64,000 bases of DNA from assembly GCF_030269685.1 (NCBI RefSeq), contig NZ_BSTT01000001.1, positions 682,001 to 746,000 of the forward strand, given 5' to 3'. The notes beneath the pieces were generated by a model. That model was not told the DNA's origin. It saw only the letters and a list, made by a program, of their open reading frames with translations, and ran no database searches. Position 1 is the stretch's first letter. Every line of letters starts with the position of its first letter. The stretch is from Actinomycetospora sp. NBRC 106378 (GTDB taxonomy: Bacteria; Actinomycetota; Actinomycetes; Mycobacteriales; Pseudonocardiaceae). Positions 12,910 through 54,815 of the stretch are shown piece after piece. A program made the position numbers and the translations under genes.

Positions 12910-14856
12910 CTAGTGGCAGGCCTCCCCGTGCGGCGCGCCGGCCGGGAGGTCCAGCGCCGGGTTGCCGTCGAAGAAGCCGGACGGGCGGAGCATGAAGCCG
13001 ATCGTCGACACCGGCATCACCGGCCAGTCCTCGGGCCGCACCACGTGGTGGGCGCCGAACGTGTACCAGACGACGACGTCGGCGCCCTCGAGCGGACGGT
13101 CGCCCTCGAGGTAGTGCGGCAGCCCCGTCCCGACCGGCGCCTGCAGCGGGTAGTCGCCCGCGGCGAAGCGCTGGGAGGGGTCGTGGGCGGTGACCCAGAC
13201 GGTGTGCTCGGTGAACCCGGAGCGCGGCGCGAAGACCGCCTCCGGCGAGTACATCGGCGGCACCGTCGAGCCCGGCATGAGGGCGTAGGCCGTCGGCGCG
13301 CCGGTCGGGCCGGTCTCGGTGGCGCTCTCGATCTTCCAGAAGCGCGCCCGCTCCGGGGCCGTGTCCCGGGCGCCCTGCGCCTCGGAGGCGACGGGCGTCC
13401 GGGTCGTCACCCACGCGTTCCCGTGCGGGTTGGCCGGCCCGGGCGGCGAGGGCATGGAGTCGATCTCGGTGACCGTGTTCGCCGCCCCGTCGACGGTCAT
13501 GTCGAGGCGCACGCAGAAGAAGTGCTGGTGGTGCGGGCCGTAGAGGCCGGGGGCGAGCAGGACCCCGTGCTCCGGGGTCTCGCCGACCGGGATCGACCCG
13601 GTGGACAACACCCCGGAGAGCTTCACCTCGTACTCGATCATGCCGTCGTTGTAGAGGTACCAGAAGTAGCCGTACTCGTAGTTCCCGACGGTGACGATCG
13701 AGGAGATGACGAGGCGCCGGCGGCGGCGGACCTCGACCTTCTCGGTGCGGAAGTCGGTGTGCTTCCACGCGATCCCGGTGTCCTCCTCGTGCATGCAGAT
13801 CGCGTTCGGGATGACGACGGCGCCACCGTCCTGGTCGTTGACGACCCCGTCGAAGTACCGGATGTGCCCGACGCAGTCGCAGCCCAGGGTCAGCGGGTTC
13901 GCGAGCCAGCCGACGCCGTACTCGCCCTGGTCGAACACGTTCTTGAAGCGGTGGGTGGGCGCGGGGTCGCCGTAGGGCACGTACATCTCGGCGAGCGAGG
14001 CGCGGTGCAGGATCGGACGCCGGGTGCCGCGGTCGTCGTAGGAGACGTCGTGCAGGACGAGGCCCTCCCGCGGGGTGAAGCCGATCCGCAGGTGCCACTT
14101 CTGCCAGGACACGGCGTGGCCCTCGACGGTGAAGCTCGGCCCCTCGGGCTGGGTGATCTCGATCGGCTTGACGTCGTCGCGGATCGTCTCGACCCGCGGC
14201 ACGTTCGCCGGGTCGTGGATCCACGGCTGCTCGTAGTTGGCGGGCTGTGGCGGCAGGTCGACGATCCCGTGGTCCTCGACATCCACCACCTCGCGCCGGT
14301 CGAGGTCCACGGTGACGATCAGGCCGTCGACCGGGCGGGCGTAGCCGTGCTCCCCGGGGGCGGACCGCATCCAGGTCAGCGGCCGGACGATGCGCCGCTC
14401 CGTGGGGTCGTCCGCCGGCCCGGTCCACGACGACGCCCAGGGGTCGATCATCGCGAGGTCGAACTGCTCGATCCCGCGCCGCCGCATCGCCTCCTGCCAG
14501 CGCGGGTCGGCACGGACGATGTCCTCGGTCGCGAAGAACTCCTCGGCCATGATCGGCGCCTGCACGCCCGGCCGCGGGACCCAGGCGACGAGCGACCGGT
14601 CGGTCAGGGAGACGACCGCCTCGTAGAGCGTCCGCTCGGACCGCTCGTAGACGACCAGCTCGGCCTCGCGGGGCAGGTCCCGGCCGCTGGCGAGGTCCGC
14701 CTTCGACGGCTCGTGGAGGTGGATGAACACGAAGCGGGCGGTCGGGCCGAGCCCCCGCGCCTCCTTGAGGATCGCCGCCGCCGCCGACACCTCGTCGGCG
14801 GTCAGCGGCTCGAGCGGGTGGGCGACGGAGACCTGGGGTTCGTCCAGTGCGGTCAT
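12910..14856 (-). CDS. Primary amine oxidase (copper/TPQ)
   Basis: 648 aa, the usual length. Oxidatively deaminates primary amines (tyramine, phenethylamine or similar) to aldehydes, ammonia and H2O2. The topaquinone-forming tyrosine lies in VGNYEYGYFWY (N-Y-E/D motif); the proton-abstracting Asp in HIRYFDGVVND; copper ligands in HHQHFFCVRLD (H-x-H) and a C-terminal His in the HHVVRPEDWPVMP region. No signal peptide, so it is probably cytoplasmic. It overlaps the upstream permease by 4 bp (ATGA), implying uptake and oxidation of the same amine. Confidence 0.95.
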   Translation of the reverse strand: MTALDEPQVSVAHPLEPLTADEVSAAAAILKEARGLGPTARFVFIHLHEPSKADLASGRDLPREAELVVYERSERTLYEAVVSLTDRSLVAWVPRPGVQAPIMAEEFFATEDIVRADPRWQEAMRRRGIEQFDLAMIDPWASSWTGPADDPTERRIVRPLTWMRSAPGEHGYARPVDGLIVTVDLDRREVVDVEDHGIVDLPPQPANYEQPWIHDPANVPRVETIRDDVKPIEITQPEGPSFTVEGHAVSWQKWHLRIGFTPREGLVLHDVSYDDRGTRRPILHRASLAEMYVPYGDPAPTHRFKNVFDQGEYGVGWLANPLTLGCDCVGHIRYFDGVVNDQDGGAVVIPNAICMHEEDTGIAWKHTDFRTEKVEVRRRRRLVISSIVTVGNYEYGYFWYLYNDGMIEYEVKLSGVLSTGSIPVGETPEHGVLLAPGLYGPHHQHFFCVRLDMTVDGAANTVTEIDSMPSPPGPANPHGNAWVTTRTPVASEAQGARDTAPERARFWKIESATETGPTGAPTAYALMPGSTVPPMYSPEAVFAPRSGFTEHTVWVTAHDPSQRFAAGDYPLQAPVGTGLPHYLEGDRPLEGADVVVWYTFGAHHVVRPEDWPVMPVSTIGFMLRPSGFFDGNPALDLPAGAPHGEACH

Positions 14857-16397
14857 CGGGCGACCTCCTGCGGGGCGTCGAGCTCGGGGTCGGACAGGGA
14901 GAAGTGGCCGAGTCCCGCGTACACGTCGGGCCGCCTCGACCGCAGGACCAGGGCGATGACGACGCCGACCGCGAAGATCACCACGGGCACGTAGGGCAGC
15001 AGGGTGATGAACGGGACGCCGTCCGCCGCGGCGAGCTCGGCGCGGTTGTCGACCAGCAGGTAGCACGCGCCGACCATGGCCACGCACCCCACGACGGGCG
15101 CGACCAGTGTCGTCAGGACGTTGAAGCCGTCGCGGGCCGTCGTCAGGAAGTAGCGCACGATCGCGACGCAGACCAGCGCCTGGACGGCGAGGATGCCGAG
15201 CACCCCGAGCAGCGGCGACCAGGTGCCGAGCTTGGTCAGCGCGGCCTCGGTCGAGGGGTCGTAGAGGGTGAAGCCGAGCATGTAGAGCGCGACGATCGCC
15301 GTCGTCGTCATGGCCGCGACGCCGGGCCCGTGGTGCTTCGAGGTCCGGGCGAGCACCCGCGGCAGGACGCCCTCGCGGCCGAGCGCGAACAGGTAGCGCG
15401 CCGAGGTGTTGTAGAACGCCATGGCGCACGCGAACGAGCTGGTGACCGCCAGGATCTCGATGATCACGGTCAGCCAGCCACCGACGAAGCGGTCCGAGAG
15501 CGGGTAGAACGCCGACGCGTACGTGCCGTTCAGCTGGTCCGACACGGCCTGGACGCTGCCGGTGAGCCCCCAGCCGGTGACGAAGGCGTACGAGACGAAC
15601 ATGTAGAAGATGCCGAGCCCGATGACCGACCCGTAGGTCGCGATCGACGCGATCTTGTGCGGGTCGCGGGACTCCTCGGCGTAGTTCGGGGCCATCTCGA
15701 AGCCGACCCAGGACCAGAAGGCCGCGAACAGGGCGATGCCGGCCGCCGTCGTCCCGAAGATCTGCAGGGCGCCGGCGTTGCCGAACACCTGCGAGGGGTC
15801 GAACGGTGCGGCCGAGAAGCCCTCGGCGCCACCGGACACGAAGATCGCCAGCGAGAGGACGATCAGGGCGAGCACCTCGGCGACGAGCATGACGCCGAGG
15901 ACCTTCGCGGTGAGCTCGATGTGGAACCAGGCGAGCAGGCTCATGATCGCGAGGCCCAGCGCCATGTACAGCCAGGCCGGCAGCGCGAGGCCGGTGAACG
16001 TCTCGACGGTCGACGCCGCGAAGTACCCCATGACGCCGATGACGGCACCCACGAAGATCATGTAGCAGAGCGCGATGAGCAACCCGGAACCGACGCCCAC
16101 CACGCGGCCGAGCCCCCGGCTGACGAACGTGTAGAAGCCCCCCGCGCTCGTCACCCGCTTCGACATCGCGATGTAGCCGACCGAGAAGATCGTGAGCGCG
16201 ATCGTGGCGATCCCGAACGCCGCCGGCGCGGCCCAGCCGCCGCCGTTCACGGCGACCGGGACGTTGAACAGCATGGCGGTCAGGGGCGCGGCGCCGGTGA
16301 CGATGCAGAAGAGGACCGAGGGCAGGCCGAGCGCGTTGTCGGCGAGGCGGCCGTGCGAGGTCTCGGGTGGCGCTGTGGGCGGAGCGGTGGCGGTCAT
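14853..16397 (-). CDS. APC-superfamily amino acid/amine permease
   Basis: 514 aa integral membrane protein with about twelve hydrophobic segments. The first helix carries the APC motif (LPSVLFCIVTGAAPLTAMLFNVPVAV) and helix 6 contains FWSWVGFEMAPNYAEESRDP, the usual substrate-binding segment and its E-E-S continuation. First gene of a two-gene operon with the amine oxidase; the substrate is therefore probably an aromatic or aliphatic amine. The 159-bp upstream gap holds no gene. Confidence 0.9.
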   Translation of the reverse strand: MTATAPPTAPPETSHGRLADNALGLPSVLFCIVTGAAPLTAMLFNVPVAVNGGGWAAPAAFGIATIALTIFSVGYIAMSKRVTSAGGFYTFVSRGLGRVVGVGSGLLIALCYMIFVGAVIGVMGYFAASTVETFTGLALPAWLYMALGLAIMSLLAWFHIELTAKVLGVMLVAEVLALIVLSLAIFVSGGAEGFSAAPFDPSQVFGNAGALQIFGTTAAGIALFAAFWSWVGFEMAPNYAEESRDPHKIASIATYGSVIGLGIFYMFVSYAFVTGWGLTGSVQAVSDQLNGTYASAFYPLSDRFVGGWLTVIIEILAVTSSFACAMAFYNTSARYLFALGREGVLPRVLARTSKHHGPGVAAMTTTAIVALYMLGFTLYDPSTEAALTKLGTWSPLLGVLGILAVQALVCVAIVRYFLTTARDGFNVLTTLVAPVVGCVAMVGACYLLVDNRAELAAADGVPFITLLPYVPVVIFAVGVVIALVLRSRRPDVYAGLGHFSLSDPELDAPQEVAR

Positions 16398-24386: not shown

Positions 24387-24680
24387 GGGGAGCTCCTTCT
24401 AGACGTCGACCGCCGCCCCGACTGTCGGCGACGGGTCTTTCGGGGAACGCCGAGCGTGGGGATCGCTCGAACGTCCGAGCACTCTGTCAGGTCTGTCCGG
24501 GTGATGTCGGAAATCCCGTTACCGGTGTGTGACAAAGGTGTGCTGATCATCTCCGTCACCTTCGGGCCCGTGGGTCGGACCTGGGTCCGAAACACGGGGA
24601 AACAGTGTCGACAACGCGACGCAGCACGCACGACACGAACCGCTCCTCTACTGGTCGCGACCCGTCGCACGGCGGGGCGC

Positions 24681-24780
24681 GCCTAGGGTTCCGCCGGTCG
24701 AGTGCCGGGTCCGCGACCGAGAGGCACAGGCGGGCCGGTCCCCACGGCCCGTTCCACGGCGGGACAAAAGCCCGGGAGAC
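24681..24780 (+). promoter_or_regulatory. Guanidine-I (ykkC) riboswitch
   Basis: The invariant parts of the ykkC consensus appear in order: CTAGGGTTCCG (24683-24693), GACCGAGAGGCACAGG (24715-24730), a central CACGGC segment and GGGACAAAAGCCCGGGAGA (24761-24779). This class binds free guanidine. It lies 30 nt before the permease GTG. The terminal GGGAGAC can pair with GTCTCT next to the permease ribosome-binding site, so translational control is possible. The preceding 294 bp (24387-24680) hold no gene. Confidence 0.88.
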
Positions 24781-24810
24781 GTCGTCCGCGCACCGCCGGA
24801 GGTCTCTGCC

Positions 24811-26334
24811 GTGTCCGTCGATCAACGCCATGCCGGCCCCGACAGTCCCGACCATGCCGATGCCGACCACCTCGGCGTGCTCGGCTACCGCCAGGAGCTG
24901 CACCGCGGCCTGAGCCCGTTCGCGTCCTTCGCCTCGGGCTTCTCGTTCGTCTCGATCCTGACGACGGTCTTCCAGCTCTTCATCATCGGCTTCGGGTTCG
25001 GCGGTCCCGCCTACATCTGGACCTGGCCCGTCGTGTTCGTCGGGCAGTTCTGCGTGTGCCTGGTGTTCGCGGAACTGGCCGCCCGCTACCCCATCGCCGG
25101 GGCGATCTACCAGTGGTCACGCCGGGTCGCCTCCGACCCGTGGGGCTGGATGGCGGGCTGGCTCATGCAGCTGGGCTACGTCGTGTCGGTCGCCGCCATC
25201 GCCATCGCACTGCAGGCGGTGCTGCCCGAGGTGTGGAGCGGGTTCCAGATCGTCGGGGGCGACCCGTCGCCGACCTCGGACACGGGAGCGCTCAACGCCA
25301 TCGTGCTCGGCACGATCTGCATCGCGGTGTGCGTGGCCGTGCAGCTGCTCGGCGTCACCCGGGTCGCGATCGTCACGCGCATCGGGGTCACCCTGGAGAT
25401 CGTCGGCCTGGTGCTCGTGGTCGTCGCCCTGTTCGCGCACGCGCAGCGGGGCCCGCAGGTCGTGTTCGAGACCAACGGGGTGCAGGGCGACGGCTCCTAC
25501 CTCTGGCCGTTCCTCGCCTCGATGCTCATGGCCGCCTACGTCATGTACGGGTTCGACTCGGCCGCGGAGCTCTCCGAGGAGACGGGCGATCCGCGGCGCA
25601 CCACCCCGCGGGCGATCGTGCGCTGCATGGTGATCTCGGGGGTCGGCGGGCTGCTGCTGATCCTCGCCGCGCTGATGGCCGCCCCGGACCTCGCCTCCCC
25701 CGATCTCGCCTCGCAGGGCATCGCGTGGGTGGTGACGAGCGAGCTCGGCGACGTCTTCGGCCGCGTCGTCCTCGCCGTGGTCGCCGCCTCGATCCTCTCC
25801 GCCGCACTCGCCATCTCGACCTCGGCGTCCCGCGTGATGTTCTCGATGGCCCGCGACGGGCAGCTGCCGTTCTCCGCCGCGCTCGCGAAGGTCTCCCCGC
25901 GGACCCGGACGCCCGTGCTGCCGACCGTCGTGGTCGGCGTGCTCGCCATCGCGGTGCTGCTGGTCAACCTCGGGCAATCGAGCGTCTTCGCCTCGGTCAC
26001 GAGCATCTCGGTGGTCATCGTCTACCTGGCGTACCTGTTCGTCACCGTGCCGCGGCTCTACCACCGCCTCGCGCGAACCGGTCTCCACGAGCCCGAGCCC
26101 GGCACGTTCTCCCTCGGCCGCTGGGGCCTGCCGGTGAACCTCGTCGCCGTCCTGTTCGGGATCTTCCTGCTGGTCAACGTGGGCTGGCCGCGCGCCGCGG
26201 TCTACGACCCGGACGGCTCCGGGGGCTGGGTCCTCCAGTACTCGGCCGTGCTCGCCGTCGTCGTCATCCTCGCGCTCGGGCTCGTGGCCTACCGGGTGAT
26301 GCGCCGGCAGAACGCCGCCCGGGCCGCGGCCTGA
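24811..26334 (+). CDS. APC-family permease under guanidine riboswitch control
   Basis: 507 aa with about twelve membrane spans. Helix 1 carries SFASGFSFVSILTTVFQLF and helix 6 YVMYGFDSAAELSEETGDPRRTTP, as in amino acid/GABA/choline-type APC carriers. The GTG start follows GGAGGT. Because a guanidine-I riboswitch precedes it and a guanidine hydrolase gene is convergent 82 bp downstream, guanidine or a guanidino compound is the best guess for its substrate; generic homologues are annotated as amino acid permeases. Confidence 0.88.
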   Translation: MSVDQRHAGPDSPDHADADHLGVLGYRQELHRGLSPFASFASGFSFVSILTTVFQLFIIGFGFGGPAYIWTWPVVFVGQFCVCLVFAELAARYPIAGAIYQWSRRVASDPWGWMAGWLMQLGYVVSVAAIAIALQAVLPEVWSGFQIVGGDPSPTSDTGALNAIVLGTICIAVCVAVQLLGVTRVAIVTRIGVTLEIVGLVLVVVALFAHAQRGPQVVFETNGVQGDGSYLWPFLASMLMAAYVMYGFDSAAELSEETGDPRRTTPRAIVRCMVISGVGGLLLILAALMAAPDLASPDLASQGIAWVVTSELGDVFGRVVLAVVAASILSAALAISTSASRVMFSMARDGQLPFSAALAKVSPRTRTPVLPTVVVGVLAIAVLLVNLGQSSVFASVTSISVVIVYLAYLFVTVPRLYHRLARTGLHEPEPGTFSLGRWGLPVNLVAVLFGIFLLVNVGWPRAAVYDPDGSGGWVLQYSAVLAVVVILALGLVAYRVMRRQNAARAAA

Positions 26335-26352
26335 TCGCTGCCGTCCCTCGTG

Positions 26353-26402
26353 GACGAACGGCACTCCCGCAGCATCGAGGTGCGCGAGAGTGCCGTTCGT
26401 GC
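26353..26402. repeat. Family B hairpin repeat, copy B2
   Basis: ACGAACGGCACTC (26354-26366) and GAGTGCCGTTCGT (26388-26400) form a perfect 13-bp stem around a 21-nt loop. Located between convergent genes, acting most likely as a bidirectional terminator. Confidence 0.85.
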
Positions 26403-26416
26403 GCGTCCCGGACGCC

Positions 26417-27580
26417 TCAGGCCTGCGGGCCCCAGGCGTGCCGGTCGCGGGCCGCGGGCTTCTTCCCGAGGTGGCCCTCCCGGACGAGCACGCCCAGCGA
26501 GTCGAGCACGATGCGCGAGCTCATCAGGGCGGTCTGCTCGGCCCAGTCGTAGGGCGGCGAGCACTCCACGATCTCCAGACCGGACAGGCCCGCGGCGGAG
26601 ATCAGCCGGATGAGGTTGAGCGCCTCGCGCGGCAGCAGGCCGCCCGGCTCGGGCCACCCCGTGCCGGGGACGAACCCGGCGTCGAGCACGTCGATGTCGA
26701 ACGACAGGTAGACCGCCTTCGCGCCCTTCCAGGCCAGCTCGAGGGCGGTCTCGGCGATCTTCTCGACGCCGACGCGCTCGACGTCGCCGATCGTCATGAT
26801 CGAGGTGCCGCGCTCCCGCCCGACCTTCACCCCGGCCCGCGGTGACTGCCACCCGCCGATCCCGATCTGCACCAGGTTGGTGGCGGGCGCGTTCGCGATG
26901 TTGGTCGCGTGGAACCAGGGCGTGGTGTGCATCCGCTCGTCGAGGTCGGTCTCCTGCGTGTCGACGTGGCGGTCGAAGTGGATGATGCCGATGTTGCCGT
27001 CGACGTGCGGCGCGATCCCGCGGATCGTCGGGTAGCCGATCGAGTGGTCGCCGCCGAGGACCACCGGGAACACCCCGCGGGAGTACACGTGGGAGATCGC
27101 CTGGCTGATCTGGTCGAACGACTTCTCCAGGTTCCCCGGGATGGTGAAGACGTCCCCGATGTCGACCATGTTCAGCTGCTCGCGCAGGTCGACGCCCAGC
27201 TCGTAGCAGTAGGTGCCGAACAGGTTGGTCGAGCGGCGGATGCCCTGCGGCCCGAAGCGGGTGCCCGGCCGGTAGGTGGTGCCGGCGTCCACCGGCGCCC
27301 CGAAGATCGCGACCTCGGCGTCGTCGACCTGGTTGACGTCCTCCAGGTAGGGCGCGTTGAGGAAGGTGCCCCGCTCGCCCGCGAAGTGCGGCAGCTCGCC
27401 GCGCGAGAACGTCGGGATCGTGCGGTCGACGAGGGTGGGTGAGCCGGAGAGGCCGAAGGCCAGCCCGCGCTCGATCTCCTCGTCGTGGCGGAACAGCGAG
27501 ATCGCCGCCTCCGCCTCCTGGGCCCACGCGCCTTCCTTCTGGGCGAAGGCGTCGCTGTGGGAGTGGCCCTGCTCGGACAT
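26417..27580 (-). CDS. gdmH: Guanidine hydrolase (GdmH-type, nickel-dependent ureohydrolase)
   Basis: 387 aa arginase/agmatinase-fold enzyme predicted to hydrolyse guanidine to urea and ammonia. Metal ligands are His179 (LGGDHSIG), Asp203-His205-Asp207 (HFDRHVDTQ) and Asp295/Asp297 (SFDIDVLD). The long N-terminus, TTYRPGTRFGPQGIRRSTNL, HTTPWFHATNI and FVPGTGWPEPGGLLPREAL match cyanobacterial GdmH (Sll1077) rather than ordinary agmatinase (about 300 aa). GdmH is a nickel enzyme; no hypA/hypB maturation pair is adjacent, but a Ni/Co permease lies about 2 kb away. Divergent from the ArsR gene. Agmatinase activity is the alternative. Confidence 0.87.
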   Translation of the reverse strand: MSEQGHSHSDAFAQKEGAWAQEAEAAISLFRHDEEIERGLAFGLSGSPTLVDRTIPTFSRGELPHFAGERGTFLNAPYLEDVNQVDDAEVAIFGAPVDAGTTYRPGTRFGPQGIRRSTNLFGTYCYELGVDLREQLNMVDIGDVFTIPGNLEKSFDQISQAISHVYSRGVFPVVLGGDHSIGYPTIRGIAPHVDGNIGIIHFDRHVDTQETDLDERMHTTPWFHATNIANAPATNLVQIGIGGWQSPRAGVKVGRERGTSIMTIGDVERVGVEKIAETALELAWKGAKAVYLSFDIDVLDAGFVPGTGWPEPGGLLPREALNLIRLISAAGLSGLEIVECSPPYDWAEQTALMSSRIVLDSLGVLVREGHLGKKPAARDRHAWGPQA

Positions 27581-27712
27581 CGGTCACCTCACCGTGGCCG
27601 TCTTTGCAGGGTCCGGTACGGCCACCCTCGTCGGCGGAGGCCGAGGCGGCCTCGAGGGGGAAATTAGCACGCCGGACGGGGCCGTCCGCCGCCGTCGCAG
27701 GCCGGTGGCGCC

Positions 27713-27742
27713 CACATGTGGACATCCATCGACACGTGATAG
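27713..27742. promoter_or_regulatory. Shared CACATGTGG box upstream of the ArsR gene
   Basis: The palindrome CACATGTG followed by GACATCCATCGACACGTGATA lies 10-40 bp before the ArsR GTG and 133 bp before the guanidine hydrolase start. The same 9-mer recurs at 30732 in the only other divergent promoter of the island. Probable operator; the binding protein is not known. Confidence 0.5.
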
Positions 27743-27752
27743 CTTCACCCGC

Positions 27753-28091
27753 GTGGAGCAGAACGAGACGCTCGCGTTCGACGCTCTGTCCGACCGCGTG
27801 CGGCGCCGCATCCTCGCCGCGCTCGGCGAGGACGGCGAGCTGAGCGTCGGCGAGATCGCGGCACGCATCGACGCCGTCGGACGGACGACGGTGTCCAGCC
27901 ACCTGCGCGTGCTGCGGACCTCCGGGCTCGTGCGCGAACGTCGGGAGGGCCGCAACCGCTACTACTCCCTCGACACCGACGGCGCCGTCCGCGATGCTTT
28001 CGTGTTCCTGCAGAACATCCTGCGCCAGGGCATCACCGACGCCGCCGCGGCCGCCGCCGACGACCCCGTGGGCGCGCAGGAGACCGGCTGA
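27753..28091 (+). CDS. ArsR-family winged-helix regulator
   Basis: 112 aa. Winged helix with FDALSDRVRRRILAAL, the recognition helix DAVGRTTVSSHLRVLRTSGL and wing REGRNRYYSLD. No metal-binding CxC or His cluster is present, so it probably does not sense metal directly. It is followed after 28 bp by an AmiC-like sensor; this pairing matches the NhhD/NhlD plus NhhC/NhlC regulators of Rhodococcus rhodochrous J1 nitrile hydratases, in which an ArsR-like activator is controlled by an amide-binding protein. Confidence 0.88.
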   Translation: MEQNETLAFDALSDRVRRRILAALGEDGELSVGEIAARIDAVGRTTVSSHLRVLRTSGLVRERREGRNRYYSLDTDGAVRDAFVFLQNILRQGITDAAAAAADDPVGAQETG

Positions 28092-28119
28092 GGCGACCAC
28101 GCCCGTCGTGGGGGGCCCG

Positions 28120-29547
28120 ATGGACACCACCACCGTCGCCGTGGAGCACACGGTGGCGCACACCCCGGAGGCGCTGTTCGCGCTGTTCGGGGCGGGCCGC
28201 GGTGCGGGCTGGCTGTTCGGGGCGCACTGCGACGACGTCCGCGTCGGCGCGCCGGTCAGCCTGCGGCTGCCGCTGGACGCCGACGGACGGCACGAGGTCG
28301 AGGTCCTCGGGCGGCTGGCGCGCGTGGTCCCGGGCGTCCTGCTCGACATCGAGCACGCCCAGCCGTGGCGCGGCCGACTGAGCCTGCGCCTCGCACCCGT
28401 CGGCACCGACCGCACGCGTGTGCGGCTGCGCGCCGACGTCCCCACCGAGGGCCTGGAGTGGCTGCTGCACCGGCGCGGGATCCCGCTGCCGGAACCGCCC
28501 GACGACGGGTCGCTGCGGCTCGGGGTCATCACCAACGCCTCCGGGCCCGGCGCGGTGTACTCCCTCTCGGCCGAGCTGATGGCCGAGCTCGCCGTCGCCG
28601 AGGTCAACGCCGACGGCGGGATCGCCGGCCGCCCGGTCCGTCTCGTCGCGGCGGACGACGGCACCGATGCCCGGCAGGCCGCGACCGAGGCCGTGCGCAT
28701 GGCGCGGCTGGGCTGTCGCGCGGTGTTCGTGAACAGCACCTCGGCGAGCTTCGAGGCCGTCCGCCACGCGCTCGCCGGCCGGGACGTCCTGGTGGTGCAC
28801 TCGGTGCTGAACGAGGGCGGCGGTGCGTCGCCGACCGCGGTGCGCTTCGGGGAGCGGCCACGGGCCCAGCTCGAGGCGCTGGTCGGGCCGACGATGGCGA
28901 CGACGGGGGCCCGGCACTGGTTCCTCGTCGGCGAGGACTACGTGTGGTCGCACGGGGTGCACGCCGCCGCCCGGCGGGTGATCGACCGGGCGGGCGGCGC
29001 GGTCGTCGGGGAGTCGCTCACCCCGCTCGGCACCTCCGACTTCACGGCCGTGCTCGAGCGGATCGGCACCTCGGGGGCGGACCTGGTGCTGAGCAGCCTC
29101 ATCGGGGCCGACGAGGTGGCCTTCGAGCGGCAGTCCGCGGACGCCGGGCTGCGCGACGCGGTGCGCACCGTGTCGCTGGTCCTCGAGGAGTCGACGCTCG
29201 CCCACATCGGCCCGCTGGCCGGCCAGGGCCTGCGCACCGCCCTGGCCTACTTCGAGAACGGCCCGATCGCCGGGAACGACGCCCTGCTGCAGCGCTACCG
29301 GGCGGCGTACGGCACGTGGGCGCCGGCGGTCACGGCCCTGTCCGAGACGGTCTACGAGTCGATCCACCGCTACGCCCGGGTGCGCCATCGCGACCCGGGC
29401 GGCAGCGCGGCGGATCACGGCCGTGCCCTGATGCGGCGACGGGCCGGCGCGGTCGACGTGGTCGGCGCGCGCGACCTCGTGACGCCCACCCTCTACGTGG
29501 CCGAGGCGGTCTCGGGACAGCTGCGGGTGGTCGGGGAGGCGAGATGA
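28120..29547 (+). CDS. SRPBCC-AmiC fusion: cytoplasmic amide/urea sensor
   Basis: 475 aa in two parts. Residues about 5-115 form an SRPBCC/AHSA1-like domain (VEHTVAHTPEALFALFGAG ... RVRLRADVPTEGLEWLL); residues about 128-460 form a type-1 periplasmic-binding fold of the AmiC/UrtA/FmdD group (LRLGVITNASGPGAVYSLSAELM, AVFVNSTSASFEAVRHAL, FLVGEDYVWSHGVHAAARRV). There is no signal peptide or lipobox, so the protein is cytoplasmic and best read as the ligand sensor for the upstream ArsR protein, as NhhC/NhlC are. Fusion with an SRPBCC domain is unusual and could add a second ligand site. Confidence 0.82.
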   Translation: MDTTTVAVEHTVAHTPEALFALFGAGRGAGWLFGAHCDDVRVGAPVSLRLPLDADGRHEVEVLGRLARVVPGVLLDIEHAQPWRGRLSLRLAPVGTDRTRVRLRADVPTEGLEWLLHRRGIPLPEPPDDGSLRLGVITNASGPGAVYSLSAELMAELAVAEVNADGGIAGRPVRLVAADDGTDARQAATEAVRMARLGCRAVFVNSTSASFEAVRHALAGRDVLVVHSVLNEGGGASPTAVRFGERPRAQLEALVGPTMATTGARHWFLVGEDYVWSHGVHAAARRVIDRAGGAVVGESLTPLGTSDFTAVLERIGTSGADLVLSSLIGADEVAFERQSADAGLRDAVRTVSLVLEESTLAHIGPLAGQGLRTALAYFENGPIAGNDALLQRYRAAYGTWAPAVTALSETVYESIHRYARVRHRDPGGSAADHGRALMRRRAGAVDVVGARDLVTPTLYVAEAVSGQLRVVGEAR

Positions 29548-29548
29548 C

Positions 29549-30628
29549 TCAGGCGCCGGCCCGGTGCCGTTCCTCGAACCCGCCGAACCGCCAGAGCAGG
29601 GCCGCCCCGCCCCAGACCAGCACGAAGAAGCCGACGATCACGTACCCGAGCAGCTCGAAGTCGTCGGCCAGGCCGGCGTAGCCCGCCAGCGCCACCACGC
29701 CGAGGTCGTCGGCCAGGACGCCCGCGAGGTAGACGCTCGCGATGAACCCCGCGACCGAGACCGTCGCCGCCGTCGTCGCGATGTTGTAGAAGAGCCGCCG
29801 CGCCGGGTTCCGGTTGGACCACGAGTAGGCGACCGACATCAGCAGCCCGTCCGCGGTGTCGAAGGCGCTCATCCCCGCCGCGAACAGCAGCGGGAGGGTC
29901 AGCGCCGCCAGCAGGGAGGCCCCGCCGCTGACGCCCGCGCTCGACGCCGTGGTCGCCGACAGCGTCAGGAGCGTGACCTCGGAGGCGGTCTCGAGACCGA
30001 GCCCGAACAGGAAGCCCAGTGGGTACATGTGCCACGAGTGCCGGATCCAGGCGCGAGCCCGGCCGCCGAGGATGCGGTTGACCAGACCGCGGTTGAGCAG
30101 CTGGCGCTCGAGCTCGGGTTCGTCGAGCCGGCCCGCCCGCAGGTCGGTCCAGAGCTTGACGATGCCGCGCAGCACCATCGCGTTGAGCACCGCGACCAGG
30201 GCGAGGAACACCATCGCGACCACCGTGGAGATCGTCCCGCCGATCTCCCGGAACGCGTCGACCTGCGCGGTGGTGGCGGCCCCGGCGGCGAGCGCGATGA
30301 CCAGGGACAACGCCACGACCACCGACGAGTGGCCCATCGCGAAGAAGAAGCCGACCCCGACGGGGCGGCGGCCGCGCTGGACCATCAGCCGCGTGGTGTC
30401 GTCGATCGCGGCGATGTGGTCGGCGTCGAAGGCGTGGCGGACGCCCAGCACGTAGGCGAGCACCCCGGCCCCGGCGAAGGCTCCCGCACCGAGCGGACCC
30501 GCCGTCAGGAAGAGGTAGAGCGACCAGCCGGCGACGTGGAGCAGGGCGATGACGGCGACGATGCCGGAGAGCTTCAGACGCTGTCCGTGGGACCAGCCGG
30601 TGGCGGGGGTGGCGGCGATCGTCGTCAA
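29549..30628 (-). CDS. nhlF: NiCoT-family nickel/cobalt permease (NhlF/HoxN type)
   Basis: 359 aa, about eight membrane helices. Carries the NiCoT signature in helix 2, RHAFDADHIAAIDDTTR (HxxDADH), plus FFFAMGHSSVV, LGLETASEVTLL and AAGMSAFDTADGLLM. Imports Co2+ and/or Ni2+. TTG start 7 nt after AAGGAG. Convergent (1-bp gap) with the sensor gene and divergent from the amidase-nitrile hydratase operon; in R. rhodochrous J1 the NhlF homologue supplies cobalt to the nitrile hydratase. Here it could also feed nickel to the guanidine hydrolase. Confidence 0.9.
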   Translation of the reverse strand: MTTIAATPATGWSHGQRLKLSGIVAVIALLHVAGWSLYLFLTAGPLGAGAFAGAGVLAYVLGVRHAFDADHIAAIDDTTRLMVQRGRRPVGVGFFFAMGHSSVVVALSLVIALAAGAATTAQVDAFREIGGTISTVVAMVFLALVAVLNAMVLRGIVKLWTDLRAGRLDEPELERQLLNRGLVNRILGGRARAWIRHSWHMYPLGFLFGLGLETASEVTLLTLSATTASSAGVSGGASLLAALTLPLLFAAGMSAFDTADGLLMSVAYSWSNRNPARRLFYNIATTAATVSVAGFIASVYLAGVLADDLGVVALAGYAGLADDFELLGYVIVGFFVLVWGGAALLWRFGGFEERHRAGA

Positions 30629-30731
30629 CCGGGGCTCCTTCTCGACGGCGGGTGGCGGCGGCGGGGACGCTACCGCGTCGTCTCAGCATGTCGATGGGCG
30701 TCGGCAGATTGTCACGACGTCATCAGGACGT

Positions 30732-30785
30732 CACATGTGGATGTGTCGGTGGTTGTTGACGTTTTCGCGTGGCGCTTCCTACGGT
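30732..30785 (+). promoter_or_regulatory. Promoter and CACATGTGG box of the nitrile hydratase operon
   Basis: TTGACG (30756-30761) and TACGGT (30780-30785) with an 18-bp spacer form a good sigma70-type promoter. CACATGTGG (30732-30740) lies 15 bp upstream of the -35, the position of an activator site, and is shared with 27713. Because the -10 box overlaps the earlier in-frame GTG at 30769, the amidase start must be the ATG at 30826. Confidence 0.6.
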
Positions 30786-30825
30786 GCTCGCGTCCACCGC
30801 CGGTCGCGCCCCCTGGAGACCACCC

Positions 30826-32367
30826 ATGCCGCTCCCCCCACCGGACCACGACGCCCTGGCCGCCGTCGCCGCCGGCTACGGCCTCGGCCTGTCCGACGAC
30901 GCGGTCGACGAGTTCGCCCCGGCCGTCTCCGGCCTGCTCGGGTCGTGGGACGCCGTGGAGGAGCTCTACGCCGCCGAGGCCCCGGCGACCCCGGAGCGGG
31001 CGTGGACCCGGCCCGACCCCGCGGACAACCCGTTCAACGCCTGGTACGTCACGACCTCGATCACCGGGGCCGCGGACGGGCCGCTGGCGGGCCGCACCGT
31101 CGCGATCAAGGACAACACCGCCGTCGCGGGCGTGCCGATGACCAACGGCTCGGACACCTTCGACGGGTACGTGCCGAGCACCGACGCGACGATCGTCGCG
31201 CGTCTCCTCGACGCGGGCGCCACGATCGCCGGCAAGGCCGTCTGCGAGGACCTCTGCTTCGCCGGGGCCTCGATCACCGCCAACACCGGCGACGTGGAGA
31301 ACCCGTGGGACCCGGCACGCAGCGCCGGCGGTTCCTCCGGCGGCAGTGCGGCCCTCGTCGCGGGCGGCGTGGTCGACATGGCCACCGGGGGCGACCAGGG
31401 CGGGTCGATCCGGATGCCCGCCGCGAACTGCGGCCTCGTCGGGCACAAGCCGACGTGGGGCCTGGTGCCCTACACCGGCGCGTTCCCCATCGAGGCGAGC
31501 ATCGACCACCTCGGCCCCATCACCCGCACCGTCACCGACGCCGCGCTCATGCTCTCGGTGATCGCCGGGGCCGACGGGCACGACCCCCGTCAGCCCACCG
31601 GCGTGGCGGCCGACGACTACCTCGGGGCGCTCGCGCAGGGTGCGACCGGGCTGCGGGTCGGGGTGCTGCGGGAGGGCTTCGGTCTCCCCGAGTCCGAGCC
31701 CGAGGTCGACGACGCCGTGCGCGCCGCGGTCACGGGACTCGCCGACGCCGGGATGACGGTCTCCGAGGTGTCGGTGCCCTGGCACCTACACGGCCCGAAG
31801 ATCTGGGACGTCATCGCCACCGAGGGCGCCGCCTCGCAGATGATCGAGAACTCCGGGTACGGCCTGAACTGGAAGGGCCTCTACGACCCCGAGCTCATGG
31901 AGTCCTACGGGCGGCGGTGGACCGAGGACGGGAGCCGGTTCCCCGACACGGTGAAGCTCGTCCTGCTCGCCGGGAAGTACGGGTTGAACACCACCCACGG
32001 CAAGCACTACGCGATGGCCCGCAACCTCGCCCCGAAGCTCGCCGCCGCCTACGACGCCGCGCTCGCCGAGGTCGACCTGCTCGTCCTGCCGACGATGGCC
32101 ATGCGCGCGACCGTGCGCCCCGGCCGCGACGCCCCGGTCGTCGAACGGCTGGGCCGGGCGCTGGAGATGCTCGCCAACACCGCCCCGTTCGACGTCACCG
32201 GCCACCCGGTGTGCACGGTGCCGGCAGGGCTGGTCGACGGGGTCCCGGTCGGTCTGTCCCTCGTCGGACGCCAGTACGAGGACGCCACCGTGCTGCGCGC
32301 CGCGCACGCCTACGAGCAGGCCGTGGGCGGCTTCCCCGCGCCCGCCGCCGTCGTCGCCCAAGCCTGA
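30826..32367 (+). CDS. Amidase (amidase-signature family)
   Basis: 513 aa. Converts the amide produced by nitrile hydratase into carboxylic acid and ammonia. The Ser-cisSer-Lys triad is in place: Lys95 (TVAIKDNT), Ser170/Ser171 (GGSSGGS) and nucleophile Ser194 (GGSIRMP). The length and an N-terminal helical extension match the enantioselective amidases linked to Rhodococcus nitrile hydratases. First gene of a four-gene operon; 31 bp to the beta subunit. Confidence 0.95.
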   Translation: MPLPPPDHDALAAVAAGYGLGLSDDAVDEFAPAVSGLLGSWDAVEELYAAEAPATPERAWTRPDPADNPFNAWYVTTSITGAADGPLAGRTVAIKDNTAVAGVPMTNGSDTFDGYVPSTDATIVARLLDAGATIAGKAVCEDLCFAGASITANTGDVENPWDPARSAGGSSGGSAALVAGGVVDMATGGDQGGSIRMPAANCGLVGHKPTWGLVPYTGAFPIEASIDHLGPITRTVTDAALMLSVIAGADGHDPRQPTGVAADDYLGALAQGATGLRVGVLREGFGLPESEPEVDDAVRAAVTGLADAGMTVSEVSVPWHLHGPKIWDVIATEGAASQMIENSGYGLNWKGLYDPELMESYGRRWTEDGSRFPDTVKLVLLAGKYGLNTTHGKHYAMARNLAPKLAAAYDAALAEVDLLVLPTMAMRATVRPGRDAPVVERLGRALEMLANTAPFDVTGHPVCTVPAGLVDGVPVGLSLVGRQYEDATVLRAAHAYEQAVGGFPAPAAVVAQA

Positions 32368-32398
32368 GCCCCGCGTCGCGTCACACCAGGAGGAACTC

Positions 32399-33106
32399 GT
32401 GAACGGACTGCACGACCTCGGCGGGAAGGACGGTCTCGGCGCCGTCGCCCCGCCCCCGGAGGAGCCGGTCTGGAAGGCGGAGTGGGAGAAGCACGCCCAC
32501 GCGATGTTCCCGCTCGCCTTCCGCGCGGGGTTCTTCGGCGTCGACTCCTTCCGCTACGGCATGGAGCAGATCGAGCCGGTGGAGTACCTGACGTCCACCT
32601 ACTACGAGCACTGGGTCCACTCCGTGACCCACCACGGCGTGCGTCTCGGTCACCTCGACCCGGAGGAGATCGAGAAGCGCACGCAGTACTACCTGGAGAA
32701 CCCCGACGCGCCGCTGCCCGAGGGGCAGGACCCCGACGGCGAGCTCGTCGCGTTCATCGAGGCCGTCATCCCGGCCGGCGCCACCGCGGCCCGTCCCGGC
32801 GAGAAGGCCCCGGCGTTCGCCGTGGGCGACCGGGTCACGGTCGTCAACGAGGTGCCGAAGGGCCACACCCGCCGCGCCGGCTACGTCCGCGGCCGCACCG
32901 GGACCGTGATCATGGCCCACGGCGAGATGATCTACCCGGACACCGCGGGCAACGACCTCGGTGAGGCGCCGGAGCACGTCTACACCGTCCAGTTCACCAA
33001 CGCCGAGCTCTGGGGCGAGGAGTCGGCCGAGCCGAACGGCACGGTCACCTTCGACGTCTGGGAGCCCTACATCGTCCCCGCCACCGCCCAGGAGACCGCC
33101 GCATGA
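32399..33106 (+). CDS. nthB: Nitrile hydratase beta subunit
   Basis: 235 aa. Starts MNGLHDLGGKDGLGAV, the invariant N-terminus of the family, continues with AFRAGFFGVDSFRYGMEQIEPVEYL and HTRRAGYVRGRTGTV, and closes with FDVWEPY. Together with alpha it forms the heterotetramer hydrating nitriles to amides. GTG start behind AGGAGGAA. Beta precedes alpha, the gene order of cobalt-type enzymes. Overlaps alpha by 4 bp. Confidence 0.97.
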   Translation: MNGLHDLGGKDGLGAVAPPPEEPVWKAEWEKHAHAMFPLAFRAGFFGVDSFRYGMEQIEPVEYLTSTYYEHWVHSVTHHGVRLGHLDPEEIEKRTQYYLENPDAPLPEGQDPDGELVAFIEAVIPAGATAARPGEKAPAFAVGDRVTVVNEVPKGHTRRAGYVRGRTGTVIMAHGEMIYPDTAGNDLGEAPEHVYTVQFTNAELWGEESAEPNGTVTFDVWEPYIVPATAQETAA

Positions 33107-33723
33107 GCGCCAGCCACTCCACCGCCCCGGTCGCCTCCGACCACCAGGCCGAGGTCGTCGCCCGCGTCAAGGCCATCGAGTCGATCATGATCGAGAAGGG
33201 CCTCATGACGACGGAGGCGGTCGACCGCCTCGCGGAGATCTACGAGAACGAGGTGGGCCCGCAGCTGGGCGCGAAGGTCGTCGCGCGGGCGTGGACCGAC
33301 CCGGTGTTCAAGGCCAGGCTCCTGGAGAACGCCAGCACCGCGTGCGCCGAGATGGGCATCGGCGGGCTGCAGGGCGAGGACATGGTCGCCGTCGAGGACA
33401 CCGACGACCTGCACCACGTCATCGTCTGCACGCTGTGCTCCTGCTACCCGTGGCCGGTGCTCGGGCTGCCCCCGAACTGGTACAAGCAGCCGGCCTACCG
33501 CTCGCGGATGGTCCGGGAGCCCCGCAAGGTGCTGCGCGAGGAGTTCGGCTACGCCGTCGCCGACGACGTCGAGGTCCGCGTGTGGGACTCCAGCTCCGAG
33601 CTGCGCTACTGGGTGCTCCCGCAGCGTCCGGAGGGCACCGACGGCTGGTCGGCCGAACAGCTCGAGGCCCTCGTCACCCGCGACTCGATGATCGGCGTCG
33701 GCGCGCCGAAGGCAGCGCAGTGA
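33103..33723 (+). CDS. nthA: Nitrile hydratase alpha subunit, cobalt type
   Basis: 206 aa. The metal-binding claw is C109-T-L-C112-S113-C114; threonine after the first Cys (VCTLCSC) marks a non-corrin cobalt enzyme, while iron enzymes have CSLCSC. Cys112 and Cys114 are the residues oxidised to sulfinate and sulfenate in the mature enzyme. WPVLGLPPNWYKQPAYRSR follows, as in the family. It sits between beta and the accessory gene with 4-bp overlaps on both sides. Confidence 0.97.
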   Translation: MSASHSTAPVASDHQAEVVARVKAIESIMIEKGLMTTEAVDRLAEIYENEVGPQLGAKVVARAWTDPVFKARLLENASTACAEMGIGGLQGEDMVAVEDTDDLHHVIVCTLCSCYPWPVLGLPPNWYKQPAYRSRMVREPRKVLREEFGYAVADDVEVRVWDSSSELRYWVLPQRPEGTDGWSAEQLEALVTRDSMIGVGAPKAAQ

Positions 33724-34136
33724 GCACACCGATCCGGGAAGAAACCGAGCTCGGGGAGGCCCGCCGTCGGGTGCAGGACCTCGTCTACGGGCTGCCCGGT
33801 GGGGACGGCGACGTCCCGTTCCGGGAGCCTTGGGAGCTGCGGGCGTTCGCGCTCGCCGTCGCGGCGTACCACTCCGGGCAGTACGAGTGGTCGGAGTTCC
33901 AGCTGTCGCTGATCGAGTCGATCAAGCAGTGGGAGGCCGACGGCGCCCGCGCGGGCCAGGAGCCGTGGAGCTACTACGAGCACTGGCTGACCGCGCTGGA
34001 GACCGTCCTCGCGGGCAGTGGGCTGCTCTCCGAGGCCGACCTGGACGACCGCACCCGGTCCGTCCTGGCCACGCCCAAGAGTGCGAACCACCACGAGCCG
34101 CACCGCGAGCCGGTGGCGATCGACCCGGCGCGCTGA
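33720..34136 (+). CDS. Nitrile hydratase accessory protein (activator/P14K-like)
   Basis: 138 aa. Homologous in pattern to the beta-subunit N-terminus: FREPWELRAFALAVAAYHSGQYEWSEF and WEADGARAGQEPWSYYEHWLTALE. Such proteins (P14K, NhlE) bind alpha and insert cobalt by subunit swapping. The GTG start overlaps the alpha stop. A 15-bp hairpin 6 nt downstream ends the operon. Confidence 0.9.
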   Translation: MSTPIREETELGEARRRVQDLVYGLPGGDGDVPFREPWELRAFALAVAAYHSGQYEWSEFQLSLIESIKQWEADGARAGQEPWSYYEHWLTALETVLAGSGLLSEADLDDRTRSVLATPKSANHHEPHREPVAIDPAR

Positions 34137-34175: not shown

Positions 34176-34188
34176 CAGGGTGGGCGGC

Positions 34189-39663: not shown

Positions 39664-39680
39664 CGCGAAGCGCACATAGG

Positions 39681-39899
39681 AAAACCCCCGGGGCATGCTT
39701 CCCTCGAGCGGCGCTCGAGGGGCTCGGATGGACAAACTCCGAGCGCCCCGGGGGTCCGGTGTCCGTCGGGAATTCACCAGCTGACGTGTCCGCCCGTGGT
39801 GGGCGGAGCCGGTCAATCCACGACCTGACGTCGGCTAGCTGACGGACACCTCACGAGTCCTGTCGTTCATCAACGTCGGACCACCTCCTCTCCCATGTA
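39681..39899 (-). ncRNA. Putative stand-alone structured RNA with two mini-ORFs
   Basis: A minus-strand promoter (TTGCGG 39934-39929, 17-bp spacer, TAGCGT 39911-39906) predicts a transcript from about 39899. Its 3' end is a compact three-way junction: stem 39685-39694/39745-39754 (10 bp) enclosing hairpins 39701-39709/39713-39721 (9 bp) and 39722-39728/39738-39744 (7 bp) with no unpaired bases between two of the helices, followed by UUUU (39684-39681). A second set of helices (39758-39767/39841-39850, 39779-39787/39828-39836, 39789-39795/39801-39807) fills the 5' half. No downstream gene on this strand, so it is not a leader. Not recognised as a known family. Confidence 0.6.
39835..39870 (-). 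CDS. 11-residue mini-ORF in the structured RNA
   Basis: ATG...TAG encodes MNDRTREVSVS. AGGAGG lies 13 nt upstream, and a preceding 8-codon ORF (MGEEVVRR, 39896-39870) that would begin almost at the predicted 5' end overlaps its start as TGATG. The last codons form one arm of the 39841-39850/39758-39767 helix, so translation would remodel the RNA. Confidence 0.45.
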   Translation of the reverse strand: MNDRTREVSVS

Positions 39900-48866: not shown

Positions 48867-49643
<777 letters not shown>

Positions 49644-49669
49644 AGTGCTTGATCCCTCCGAGGGAGCCT

Positions 49670-50581
49670 TTACTTCGAGATCGCCGAGTAGCGGGAGATG
49701 ACGCTGGCCGCGAGCTGGAACACCATCACGATGAGGATCAGGGTCAGCGCGCCGCCCCAGATGCGGAGCTGGCCGGCCGCGGACGGGTTCGTCGACAGCT
49801 CGGTGTAGATCAGCAGCGGCAGCGAGGCCTGGTTGCCCTCGAAGGGGTTGAAGTTGATCGCCCGGGCGTAGCCGACCAGCACCAGCACCGGCGCGGTCTC
49901 GCCCATCACGCGGGCGAAGGCGAGCATCACGCCGGTGACCGTGCCCGAGAGCGCGGTCGGGAGCACGATGCGCAGGATCGTCTTCCACTTCGGGATGCCG
50001 AGGGCGTAGGAGGCCTCGCGCAGCTCGTCCGGGACCAGCTGCAGCATCTCCTCGGTGTTGCGGATGACCACCGGGAGCATCAGCAGCACCAGCGCGAGCC
50101 CGACCAGGAAGCCGCTCTGCGACAGACCGCCGATCGAGATGAACAGCGCGAAGATGAAGAGCGCGGCCACGATCGACGGCACCCCGGAGAGGATGTCGAC
50201 CATGAAGCTCGTGATCTTCGCGAGCCGACCGCGGCCGTACTCGACGAGGTAGACGGCGGCGAGGATGCCCACCGGCACCGCGATGATCCCGGCGATCAGC
50301 GCCTGGACCAGGGTGCCGACGATCGCGTGGTAGACGCCGCCGCGCACCTCGTCCGGCGTGACGCCGGACAGCGACCTCGTCCACCAGTCGGCGGAGACGA
50401 TCGCCGGCACGCCCTTGATGAGCACGCTGACGAGCAGCCAGACCAGCGGGACGAGCGCGACGAGGAAGGCCAGGGTGACCAGGACGGTCGCCGCCTGGTT
50501 CTTGACCTTCCGCGCGGTGGAGACGTTGCGGAACGTCGCGGGGACGGCGGGGCGCTCCGGGGCGTCGAGGGCAGCACTCAT
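49670..50581 (-). CDS. pstA: Phosphate ABC transporter permease PstA
   Basis: 303 aa, six membrane helices after a short cytoplasmic tail. The EAA loop reads [23 protein letters not shown]. With PstC it forms the channel for phosphate. Its start overlaps the pstC stop by 1 bp. Confidence 0.95.
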
Positions 50582-51666: not shown

Positions 51667-51686
51667 GCGTCAGTCGATCCGGACGA

Positions 51687-54011: not shown

Positions 54012-54815
54012 TCAGGCGCGACCCGCCCAGACGGCGGGTCGCACGACCCGGTCGTCGTCGCGGGGCGCCGCCCCGGAGGGCTCCTCGTCGTCGCCGGCGT
54101 CGTCGAGCGCGAGACCGCCGCGCGCGCCGTCGCCCCCGCCGAGCACGCCGCGCACCGGCCGGACGAACTTGTAGCCGACGTTGCGCACGGTGCCGATCAG
54201 CTGCTCGTGCTCGGCCCCGAGCTTCGCCCGGAGGCGCCGCACGTGGACGTCGACCGTGCGGGTGCCGCCGAAGAAGTCGTAGCCCCAGACCTCCTGCAGC
54301 AGCTGCGCCCGGGTGAACACCCGTCCCGCGTGCTGGGCGAGGTACTTGAGGAGCTCGAACTCCTTGTAGGTCAGGTCGAGCGGGCGCCCGCGCAGCCGCG
54401 CGGTGTAGGTCGCCTCGTCGATGACGAGCTCACCGAGGACCAGGGCACCGTCGCCGCCGGCGGCGTCGGTGGAGCGGCGCGCCCGCAGCAGGCGCAGCCG
54501 CGCGTCGATCTCGGCCGGGCCGGCCCCGGGCAGCAGGACCTCGTCCACGCCCCACTCGAGGGAGACGGCCACGAGGCCACCCTCGGTCAGGACGGCGATG
54601 ACCGGGACGTCGAGCCCGGTGGAGCCCAGGAGACGGCACAGGCTCCGGGCGGCGGCGAGGTCGTGGCGGGCGTCGACCAGGACGGCGTCGTGCGGTCCGG
54701 CGTCGAGCAGGGCGGCCACTTCGGGGGCGGCGGTCCGCAGCCCGTGGGGTAGCAGGGTCAACGACGGCAGCACTGACGTCGGTTCGGGGTCGGCGGTGAG
54801 CAGCAGGAGCTCCAC
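54012..54815 (-). CDS. glnR: Orphan OmpR-family response regulator GlnR
   Basis: 267 aa. Receiver-like domain (residues about 1-110; [21 protein letters not shown] holds the conserved Asp but lacks the full acidic pocket) and a winged-helix DNA-binding domain ([52 protein letters not shown]). Position next to mshD matches GlnR (Rv0818). It controls nitrogen assimilation genes and could influence the nitrogen island in this window. Confidence 0.88.

Follow-up and report, generated by a model that had tools for sequence, protein, structure and literature searches.

The DNA analysed here (the window) is a stretch of 64,000 nucleotides from Actinomycetospora sp. NBRC 106378, positions C1:682001-746000 in a genome of 6.31 Mb that is split over 52 contigs (G000), and at 24672-34136 it holds a set of guanidine genes adjoining a set of nitrile genes. 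The initial annotation described this span as a combined guanidine and nitrile nitrogen-scavenging island; all of the parts that it named (a guanidine-I riboswitch, a permease, gdmH, arsR, an amiC-like gene, a Ni/Co permease, an amidase and a nitrile hydratase [NHase]) are present close to where it had placed them, and their identities were borne out by profile and PDB matches. A guanidine-III riboswitch before gdmH, absent from that annotation, was added. Genes in the window and in its relatives were called by simple scripts, and start codons are uncertain. The locus is best read as two self-contained, independently switched nitrogen modules that adjoin each other where a guanidine exporter formerly stood and possibly share metal import, a reading that we consider probable. 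The features are as follows.

24672..24780, plus strand: guanidine-I riboswitch aptamer in the permease leader (RF00442, 60.1 bits, E 2.2e-10)
24811..26334, plus strand: APC-type permease, probable guanidine importer (PF13520, 7.5e-52; GTG start uncertain)
26417..27580, minus strand: gdmH, probable Ni-dependent guanidine hydrolase (guanidinase) (9fek, 2.3e-158)
27592..27656, minus strand: guanidine-III riboswitch aptamer in the gdmH leader (RF01763, 35.4 bits)
27661..27666, minus strand: TAATTT, -10-like element of the inferred gdmH promoter, directly preceding the class-III aptamer (invariant in three genomes)
27713..27722, plus strand: CACATGTGGA, candidate operator for ArsR in the arsR promoter region, between arsR and the divergent gdmH (a lead only)
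27753..28091, plus strand: arsR-type regulator, no cysteine (NF033788, 2.8e-22)
28120..29547, plus strand: AmiC-like amide receptor with an extra N-terminal domain (PF13458, 5.6e-60)
29549..30628, minus strand: NiCoT-family Ni/Co permease (PF03824, 1.3e-70; TIGR00802 at cut-off)
30732..30741, plus strand: second copy of CACATGTGGA, upstream of the TTGAC-type promoter of the amidase operon (a lead only)
30826..32367, plus strand: amidase of the NHase-associated kind (NF005565, 4.9e-223, over cut-off; 3a1k, 1.5e-188)
32399..33106, plus strand: nitrile hydratase beta (TIGR03888, 243 bits, over cut-off)
33103..33723, plus strand: nitrile hydratase alpha, cobalt type (TIGR01323, 302.5 bits, over cut-off; CTLCSC at residue 109)
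33720..34136, plus strand: nitrile hydratase activator or accessory protein (TIGR03889, 75.7 bits, over cut-off; start uncertain)
54012..54815, minus strand: GlnR, elsewhere in the window as initially annotated (PF21695, 2e-43)

The guanidine genes and their riboswitches

The top PDB matches of the hydrolase were guanidinases (9fek at 531 bits, 7esr/7oi1 at 498), with the next ureohydrolase following at 162 bits, and its arginase-family domain matched PF00491 (3.7e-75). Guanidinases can be picked by Thr105, His222 and Trp313 in Nitrospira inopinata numbering, according to the available excerpts of PMC11410670; in the alignment with 9fek, its chain counted as shifted by 2, the guanidinase residues T102, H218 and W309 were present. 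The hydrolase might instead be an agmatinase or act on another guanidino compound, and its best NCBIfam models are agmatinase models, yet these matches lie below their cut-offs. Solved guanidinases match it far better, all three guanidinase residues are in place, a guanidine riboswitch stands upstream of its gene, and a separate ureohydrolase, 36% identical to it, is encoded elsewhere in the genome; an agmatinase, or an enzyme for another guanidino compound, is therefore very improbable here. Together, these matches indicate that the enzyme is a probable GdmH-type guanidine hydrolase.

The permease, whose best NCBIfam model was TIGR03428 ('permease, urea carboxylase system'; 3.4e-182, its 606.6 bits falling under the cut-off of 740), is convergent with gdmH, and its GTG lies 30 bases beyond the end of the guanidine-I aptamer. 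The conserved core of this aptamer is intact in the alignments (CTAGGGTTCCG, ACCGAGAG, CCACGGCGGGA and AAAAGCCCGGGAGA). A direct switching of gdmH by the guanidine-I element was ruled out, because that element belongs to the permease leader and gdmH is read from the opposite strand. The gdmH leader carries the guanidine-III aptamer, which is the sole class-III match in the genome at E up to 0.05 (2.4e-5 genome-wide; 3.9e-6 when the search was confined to 241 bases) and keeps the class-III core (GACGAG, GCCGTACC and AAGACGGC). Across the three genomes in which the two halves are joined (the joint genomes: the window's own, G002 and G014), the aptamer in this leader is nearly unchanged, the start region and the -10-like TAATTT are unchanged, and the upstream spacer is variable.

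Importer and hydrolase appear to stand under two different guanidine riboswitch classes. As described in excerpts of PMC12186494, class III releases the Shine-Dalgarno sequence when it binds guanidine, and class I generally works at the level of transcription. Intracellular guanidine would switch on the permease via the class-I riboswitch and, separately, gdmH via the class-III riboswitch; GdmH would split guanidine to urea and ammonia, and urease encoded elsewhere would complete the breakdown. A urease alpha gene is present on contig C7 (alpha being the subunit that the search covered), which makes a route from guanidine through urea to ammonia plausible on paper.

Riboswitches at other gdmH genes were surveyed in a non-random set of 98 rows, made up of the best 80 matches minus L087 (which copies L053), 18 relatives and the window; L054 and L096 are one locus, hence 97 distinct loci. 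Two riboswitch models, R1 and R2, were run on these loci, the window's own sequence having been included in the construction of R1. Class III stood upstream of gdmH at 54 distinct loci (by a model that includes the window), 24 of which also had an oppositely pointing class I; class I stood upstream at 14, and neither class at 29, three of these with a divergent class I. Judged by these models, other gdmH loci besides the window's also combine classes I and III. No account of class I with class III at gdmH was found in the literature (open papers only), and a search for guanidine-III with speB gave nothing useful. At the gdmH relatives of three congeners (G005, G010 and G011; loci L066, L067 and L068), an opposite-strand class-III aptamer was seen about 0.35-0.42 kb past the 3' end, pointing back to the gene.

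The guanidine operon of the comammox bacterium N. inopinata consists of a guanidine-I riboswitch, an APC permease and a guanidinase, with no nickel chaperone listed in the available excerpts of PMC11410670. The window shares with it the closest solved guanidinase (9fek), an APC-type permease, a guanidine-I riboswitch and the lack of a detected HypA; however, in the window permease and hydrolase are convergent, class I precedes the permease and class III precedes gdmH, and a nitrile module adjoins. Similarly, the gdmH operon of Synechocystis PCC 6803 has a nickel guanidine hydrolase under a guanidine riboswitch, but its class-I operon includes an ABC importer and two nickel-loading proteins (excerpts of PMC12186494), none of which is found in the window island, where gdmH is class-III-led. 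Enterobacterial guanidine carboxylase loci likewise place import and breakdown genes under two riboswitch classes, namely I and II (the same excerpts), whereas the window has classes I and III and a hydrolase instead of the carboxylase pathway.

Linkage of the two halves and the nitrile module

Among the 18 Actinomycetospora genomes sampled, NHase alpha (E up to 1e-30) was found in all and gdmH (E up to 1e-100) in nine. The two genes lie no more than 7 kb apart in three of these nine, the joint genomes; in G010 they are separated by 108 kb, and in the other five they fall on different contigs. A wider set of 150 relatives held 20 genomes with gdmH, 51 with NHase, 15 with both and three with the two linked, the next same-contig pair being 63 kb apart, and in an order-level sample of 397 genomes, with NHase taken at E up to 1e-40, the corresponding numbers were 19, 99, 10 and two (G000 and G002). 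Within the best 80 named gdmH loci (up to 10 kb per side), NHase was found in A. chiangmaiensis and in one Mycobacterium metagenome-assembled genome (L137), where an NHase beta-alpha pair (13701-15274) lies about 2.6 kb from gdmH in another arrangement, its alpha 49% identical, possibly as an independent juxtaposition. These counts agree with the initial annotation that the joint cluster is rare. The annotation had also named unlinked halves in related genomes as an outcome that would refute it, and the halves are unlinked in six of the nine gdmH-bearing Actinomycetospora; in the remaining three species the halves are linked, at one syntenic site. By these counts the joint cluster appears to be an uncommon juxtaposition confined to one clade, and no joint guanidine-nitrile locus was found in the literature, as judged from titles and the starts of abstracts.

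The NHase has separate alpha and beta subunits and an activator; its alpha subunit has a cobalt NHase as nearest PDB entry and carries CTLCSC, the mark of a cobalt-type nitrile hydratase; the cobalt type assigned earlier was thus upheld. The set of arsR, amiC, amidase and NHase occurs without gdmH in the locus in G009, G017, G001, G021, G080, G149 and G066, and the same set plus NiCoT, again without gdmH, occurs in G015, G008, G004, G006 and G108; the loci examined came from genus, family and order. The loci of G010 and G054 have amidase and NHase with the arsR-amiC pair not adjoining, and two more NHase loci in the window's own genome (L085 and L086) gave no arsR or amiC match. ArsR, the AmiC-like gene and the Ni/Co permease had been presented as parts of a combined island; they are indeed present, but because they recur with NHase at loci without gdmH they belong to the nitrile half, and their candidacy as guanidine-module genes was rejected.

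The nitrile half is by itself ordinary. We take it to resemble the low-molecular-mass cluster of Rhodococcus rhodochrous J1 (nhlC, nhlD, nhlF, amdA, nhlBAE), with which it presumably shares a cobalt NHase and activator, an amidase, a Ni/Co permease, an AmiC-like receptor and an ArsR-type regulator; the literature search yielded no paper on nhlC/nhlD and nothing useful on Actinomycetospora with nitrile hydratase. Compared with J1, the window locus has an adjoining guanidine module; its AmiC-like protein also has an extra N-terminal domain, which was not compared with J1. The ArsR protein matched the subfamily model NF033788 at 78.3 bits (cut-off 55) and has no cysteine in its 112 residues, which makes metal sensing through thiols improbable. 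It probably works with the AmiC-like protein, which matched AmiC (1pea) at 4.9e-14. The N-terminal domain of this AmiC-like protein (about 125 residues, 28120-28500), fused to the amide-receptor part, is conserved in all ten aligned proteins including the window's; two of the ten gave weak matches to Polyketide_cyc2 (PF10604; best E 0.0036) and the window protein gave none, and the domain is perhaps of the SRPBCC kind. The ArsR-type repressor and the AmiC-like amide receptor would probably control their own genes, the Ni/Co permease and the amidase-NHase operon, and the module would convert nitriles to amides and these to acids and ammonia.

History of the site and of gdmH

The island is bounded by a methyltransferase gene (23239) and a gene at 34180. 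At the same site G006 has a class-III riboswitch and an SMR exporter, and G016 has class III, an SMR exporter, then NiCoT (94%) and an amidase (85%), with no match to NHase, arsR or amiC in the locus (the two sister loci are L235 7656-8059 and L234 11397-14569). G001 has a pair of class III and a small exporter elsewhere in its genome. The window importer and hydrolase sit where the sister species keep a guanidine exporter, and a guanidine-export site probably preceded the present island; if the changes ran in this order, class III and the exporter, as in the sister species, would have given way in the window clade to an importer and a hydrolase.

The two guanidine genes differ in their affinities. 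The window permease groups with that of G009 (support 100/100 in a tree of 13 rows), which adjoins a class-I-led gdmH, the NHase module of G009 sitting on another contig; the importer groups with the genus's own. The window gdmH stands apart from the class-I-led gdmH of G009, G004 and G012, and its descent within that lineage of the genus was rejected: the constraint cost 211 log-likelihood units with a p-AU of 2.25e-10, in a test of 40 rows with six rows held together and the gdmH relatives of G005, G010 and G011 left out. The latter, at 56-60% identity, form a third kind in the genus and were included in another tree. The nearest gdmH outside the genus, at 86-89% identity, are those of Quadrisphaera, Cellulomonas, Streptomyces albipurpureus, two Asanoa and three Mycobacteriaceae, and the trees gave no well-supported branch uniting the window gdmH with any single one of these eight. 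A class-III core, CGACGAGGGTGGCCGTACCGG, is common to the gdmH leaders of the window, Cellulomonas triticagri and S. albipurpureus, while the class-III leaders of the genus's exporters differ from it; a model search of the loci found no class-III leader at the other six of the eight. Because this core is shared with the Cellulomonas and Streptomyces gdmH leaders and is unlike the genus's exporter leaders, gdmH and its class-III leader were probably acquired together by transfer from another actinobacterium. No compositional trace of a transfer was found (GC 0.727 versus 0.731 for the window; mean GC3 0.966 in nine island genes versus 0.957 in 56 others). Taken together, these data suggest that guanidine assimilation in actinobacteria can be assembled piecemeal, from a hydrolase and an importer of different histories, each with its own riboswitch class.

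Regulation across the halves and nickel supply

gdmH and arsR are divergent, with 172 bp between them. The sequence CACATGTGGA occurs exactly in the window at 27713 and 30732 only and stands at the same offset from arsR in three genomes; with one mismatch allowed there were five window matches, and as many were obtained in five of 100 shuffles. Each of the three joint genomes has the form ACATGTGGA at both its arsR and its amidase promoter, and the NHase loci of G009 and G006 have it at the amidase promoter. Of 33 upstream regions, 11 contained a looser form (mononucleotide shuffles: mean 0.12, maximum 2), six of the 11 coming from the three near-identical joint loci, with offsets that are not all equal. 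Because the pattern was chosen after inspection, ACATGTGGA as an ArsR operator is put forward as a lead only.

The halves could be imagined as one co-regulated nitrogen-scavenging island in which nitrogen limitation (through GlnR), ArsR or both switch both of them. The divergent gdmH/arsR arrangement, in which the -10-like element of gdmH has the candidate ArsR operator some 47-56 bases upstream, is consistent with this, as are the linkage kept across three species and an exact match to a GlnR half-box pattern at 24518-24533, upstream of the permease leader. However, two or more half-box matches arose in 23 of 100 shuffles, and the relevant one is not intact in G002 (G014 was outside that alignment), and GlnR was rejected as a common regulator on these grounds. 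Moreover, the permease and gdmH each carry a riboswitch of their own, and the operator-like motif goes with the nitrile module, since it is found at amidase promoters of NHase loci lacking gdmH. No convincing shared regulator of both halves was found, and common control is improbable; the combined island of the initial annotation held for gene identities and rarity but less so for integration. From the logic of the pathways, a joint scavenging function of the two halves would be plausible. The guanidine half might also serve detoxification and not nitrogen supply, as the class-III and small-exporter pairs of G006, G016 and G001 could suggest; against this, a urease is present and the hydrolase is paired with a permease of the importer type, a pairing also found in N. 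inopinata, for which growth on guanidine is described (excerpts of PMC11410670 and PMC12186494), and we regard a detoxifying role as quite unlikely.

Several points weigh against the preferred reading of two independently switched modules at a former export site. Both aptamers score just under their Rfam gathering thresholds: guanidine-I has 60.1 bits against 63 and consequently was not reported by a plain gathering-threshold scan, and guanidine-III has 35.4 bits against 36; their counterparts in the other joint genomes are also below threshold (guanidine-I, in the same place, 57.9 bits in G002 and 62.1 in G014; guanidine-III, 34.1 bits in each). The predicted folds did not differ significantly from shuffles for either leader (z 0.95 for the permease, -1.1 to -1.2 for gdmH). 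In draft genomes, genes on different contigs may lie at any distance from each other, and an old gdmH duplication with losses is a possible alternative to transfer. Lastly, nickel may also enter by routes other than the linked NiCoT, because the genome has three NicO permeases, this one and two more.

The sole plausible biochemical bridge between the modules would be metal supply, with cobalt or nickel going to NHase, GdmH and urease; NiCoT-type permeases can carry both metals. Metal sharing might even be what keeps the halves together, the NHase-linked Ni/Co permease feeding nickel to GdmH without a dedicated nickel chaperone. The distance from NiCoT to gdmH is about 2 kb in each of the joint genomes, and in G016 NiCoT stands beside a guanidine exporter. 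HypA (PF01155) had no match in G000 or G002 and was present in seven of the 13 genus genomes searched (HypB was not part of the search), and one HypA query against the 98 gdmH loci found nothing. Furthermore, GdmH of the known kind needs nickel, according to excerpts of PMC11410670 and PMC12186494. Against metal sharing stand the two further NicO genes, the finding that within the stretches covered a NiCoT relative lay near gdmH only at L056 besides the joint loci, and the nature of the G016 guanidine gene, which is an exporter with no need of nickel; as the reason for the linkage, metal sharing is unlikely.

In Synechocystis, nickel is supplied to GdmH by two loading proteins (excerpts of PMC11410670 and PMC12186494), and the nickel-loading route of the N. 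inopinata guanidinase is stated to be unclear (excerpts of PMC11410670). HSHSD is found near the N-terminus in all 11 gdmH products at least 84% identical to the window's, namely those of the window, two congeners and eight others (L088, L089, L090, L091, L092, L093, L094 and L155), and is absent from the other 87 rows (86 distinct loci). In six of the 11, some 25-residue N-terminal stretch holds six to eight histidines; the window and congener proteins have two only (MSEQGHSHSD), and L143 has a histidine-rich stretch (seven) without HSHSD. A single clade of HSHSD gdmH was not rejected (p 0.39) but not established either, appearing in 26% of 200 bootstrap trees; a literature search for a histidine-rich guanidinase gave nothing useful. 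HSHSD or the histidine-rich stretch is a candidate built-in nickel-loading element. It is conceivable, though doubtful, that the window gdmH belongs to a distinct guanidinase lineage whose enzymes take up nickel unaided, by way of an N-terminal tail rich in histidine, and that, with class III, it took over an export site beside a Ni/Co importer in Actinomycetospora. If true, this would answer, for this lineage, how a guanidinase without a chaperone gets its nickel, and it would show one chromosomal site shifting from guanidine export to guanidine consumption. The occurrence of an HSHSD lineage in a genome without detected HypA makes guanidinase nickel supply directly testable, and this lineage, the split between classes I and III, and the exchange of an exporter for an importer and a hydrolase at one site are the chief leads from this locus.

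Three minor observations concern neighbouring or related sequences. A second NiCoT of G000 (contig C23, L247 4282-9107), 83% identical, is preceded by two genes that weakly match the tubulin-like family Tubulin_2, and in G009 (L248) genes of like size and order precede a NiCoT. In two Asanoa, a group of genes close to gdmH also matched the window genes at 48867-52757; it comprises an ABC transporter and a PstS-like binding protein with a PhoU neighbour, and was set aside as probably serving phosphate and unrelated. An Ms_IGR-5 actinobacterial small RNA was matched at 39676-39898 on the minus strand (83.4 bits).

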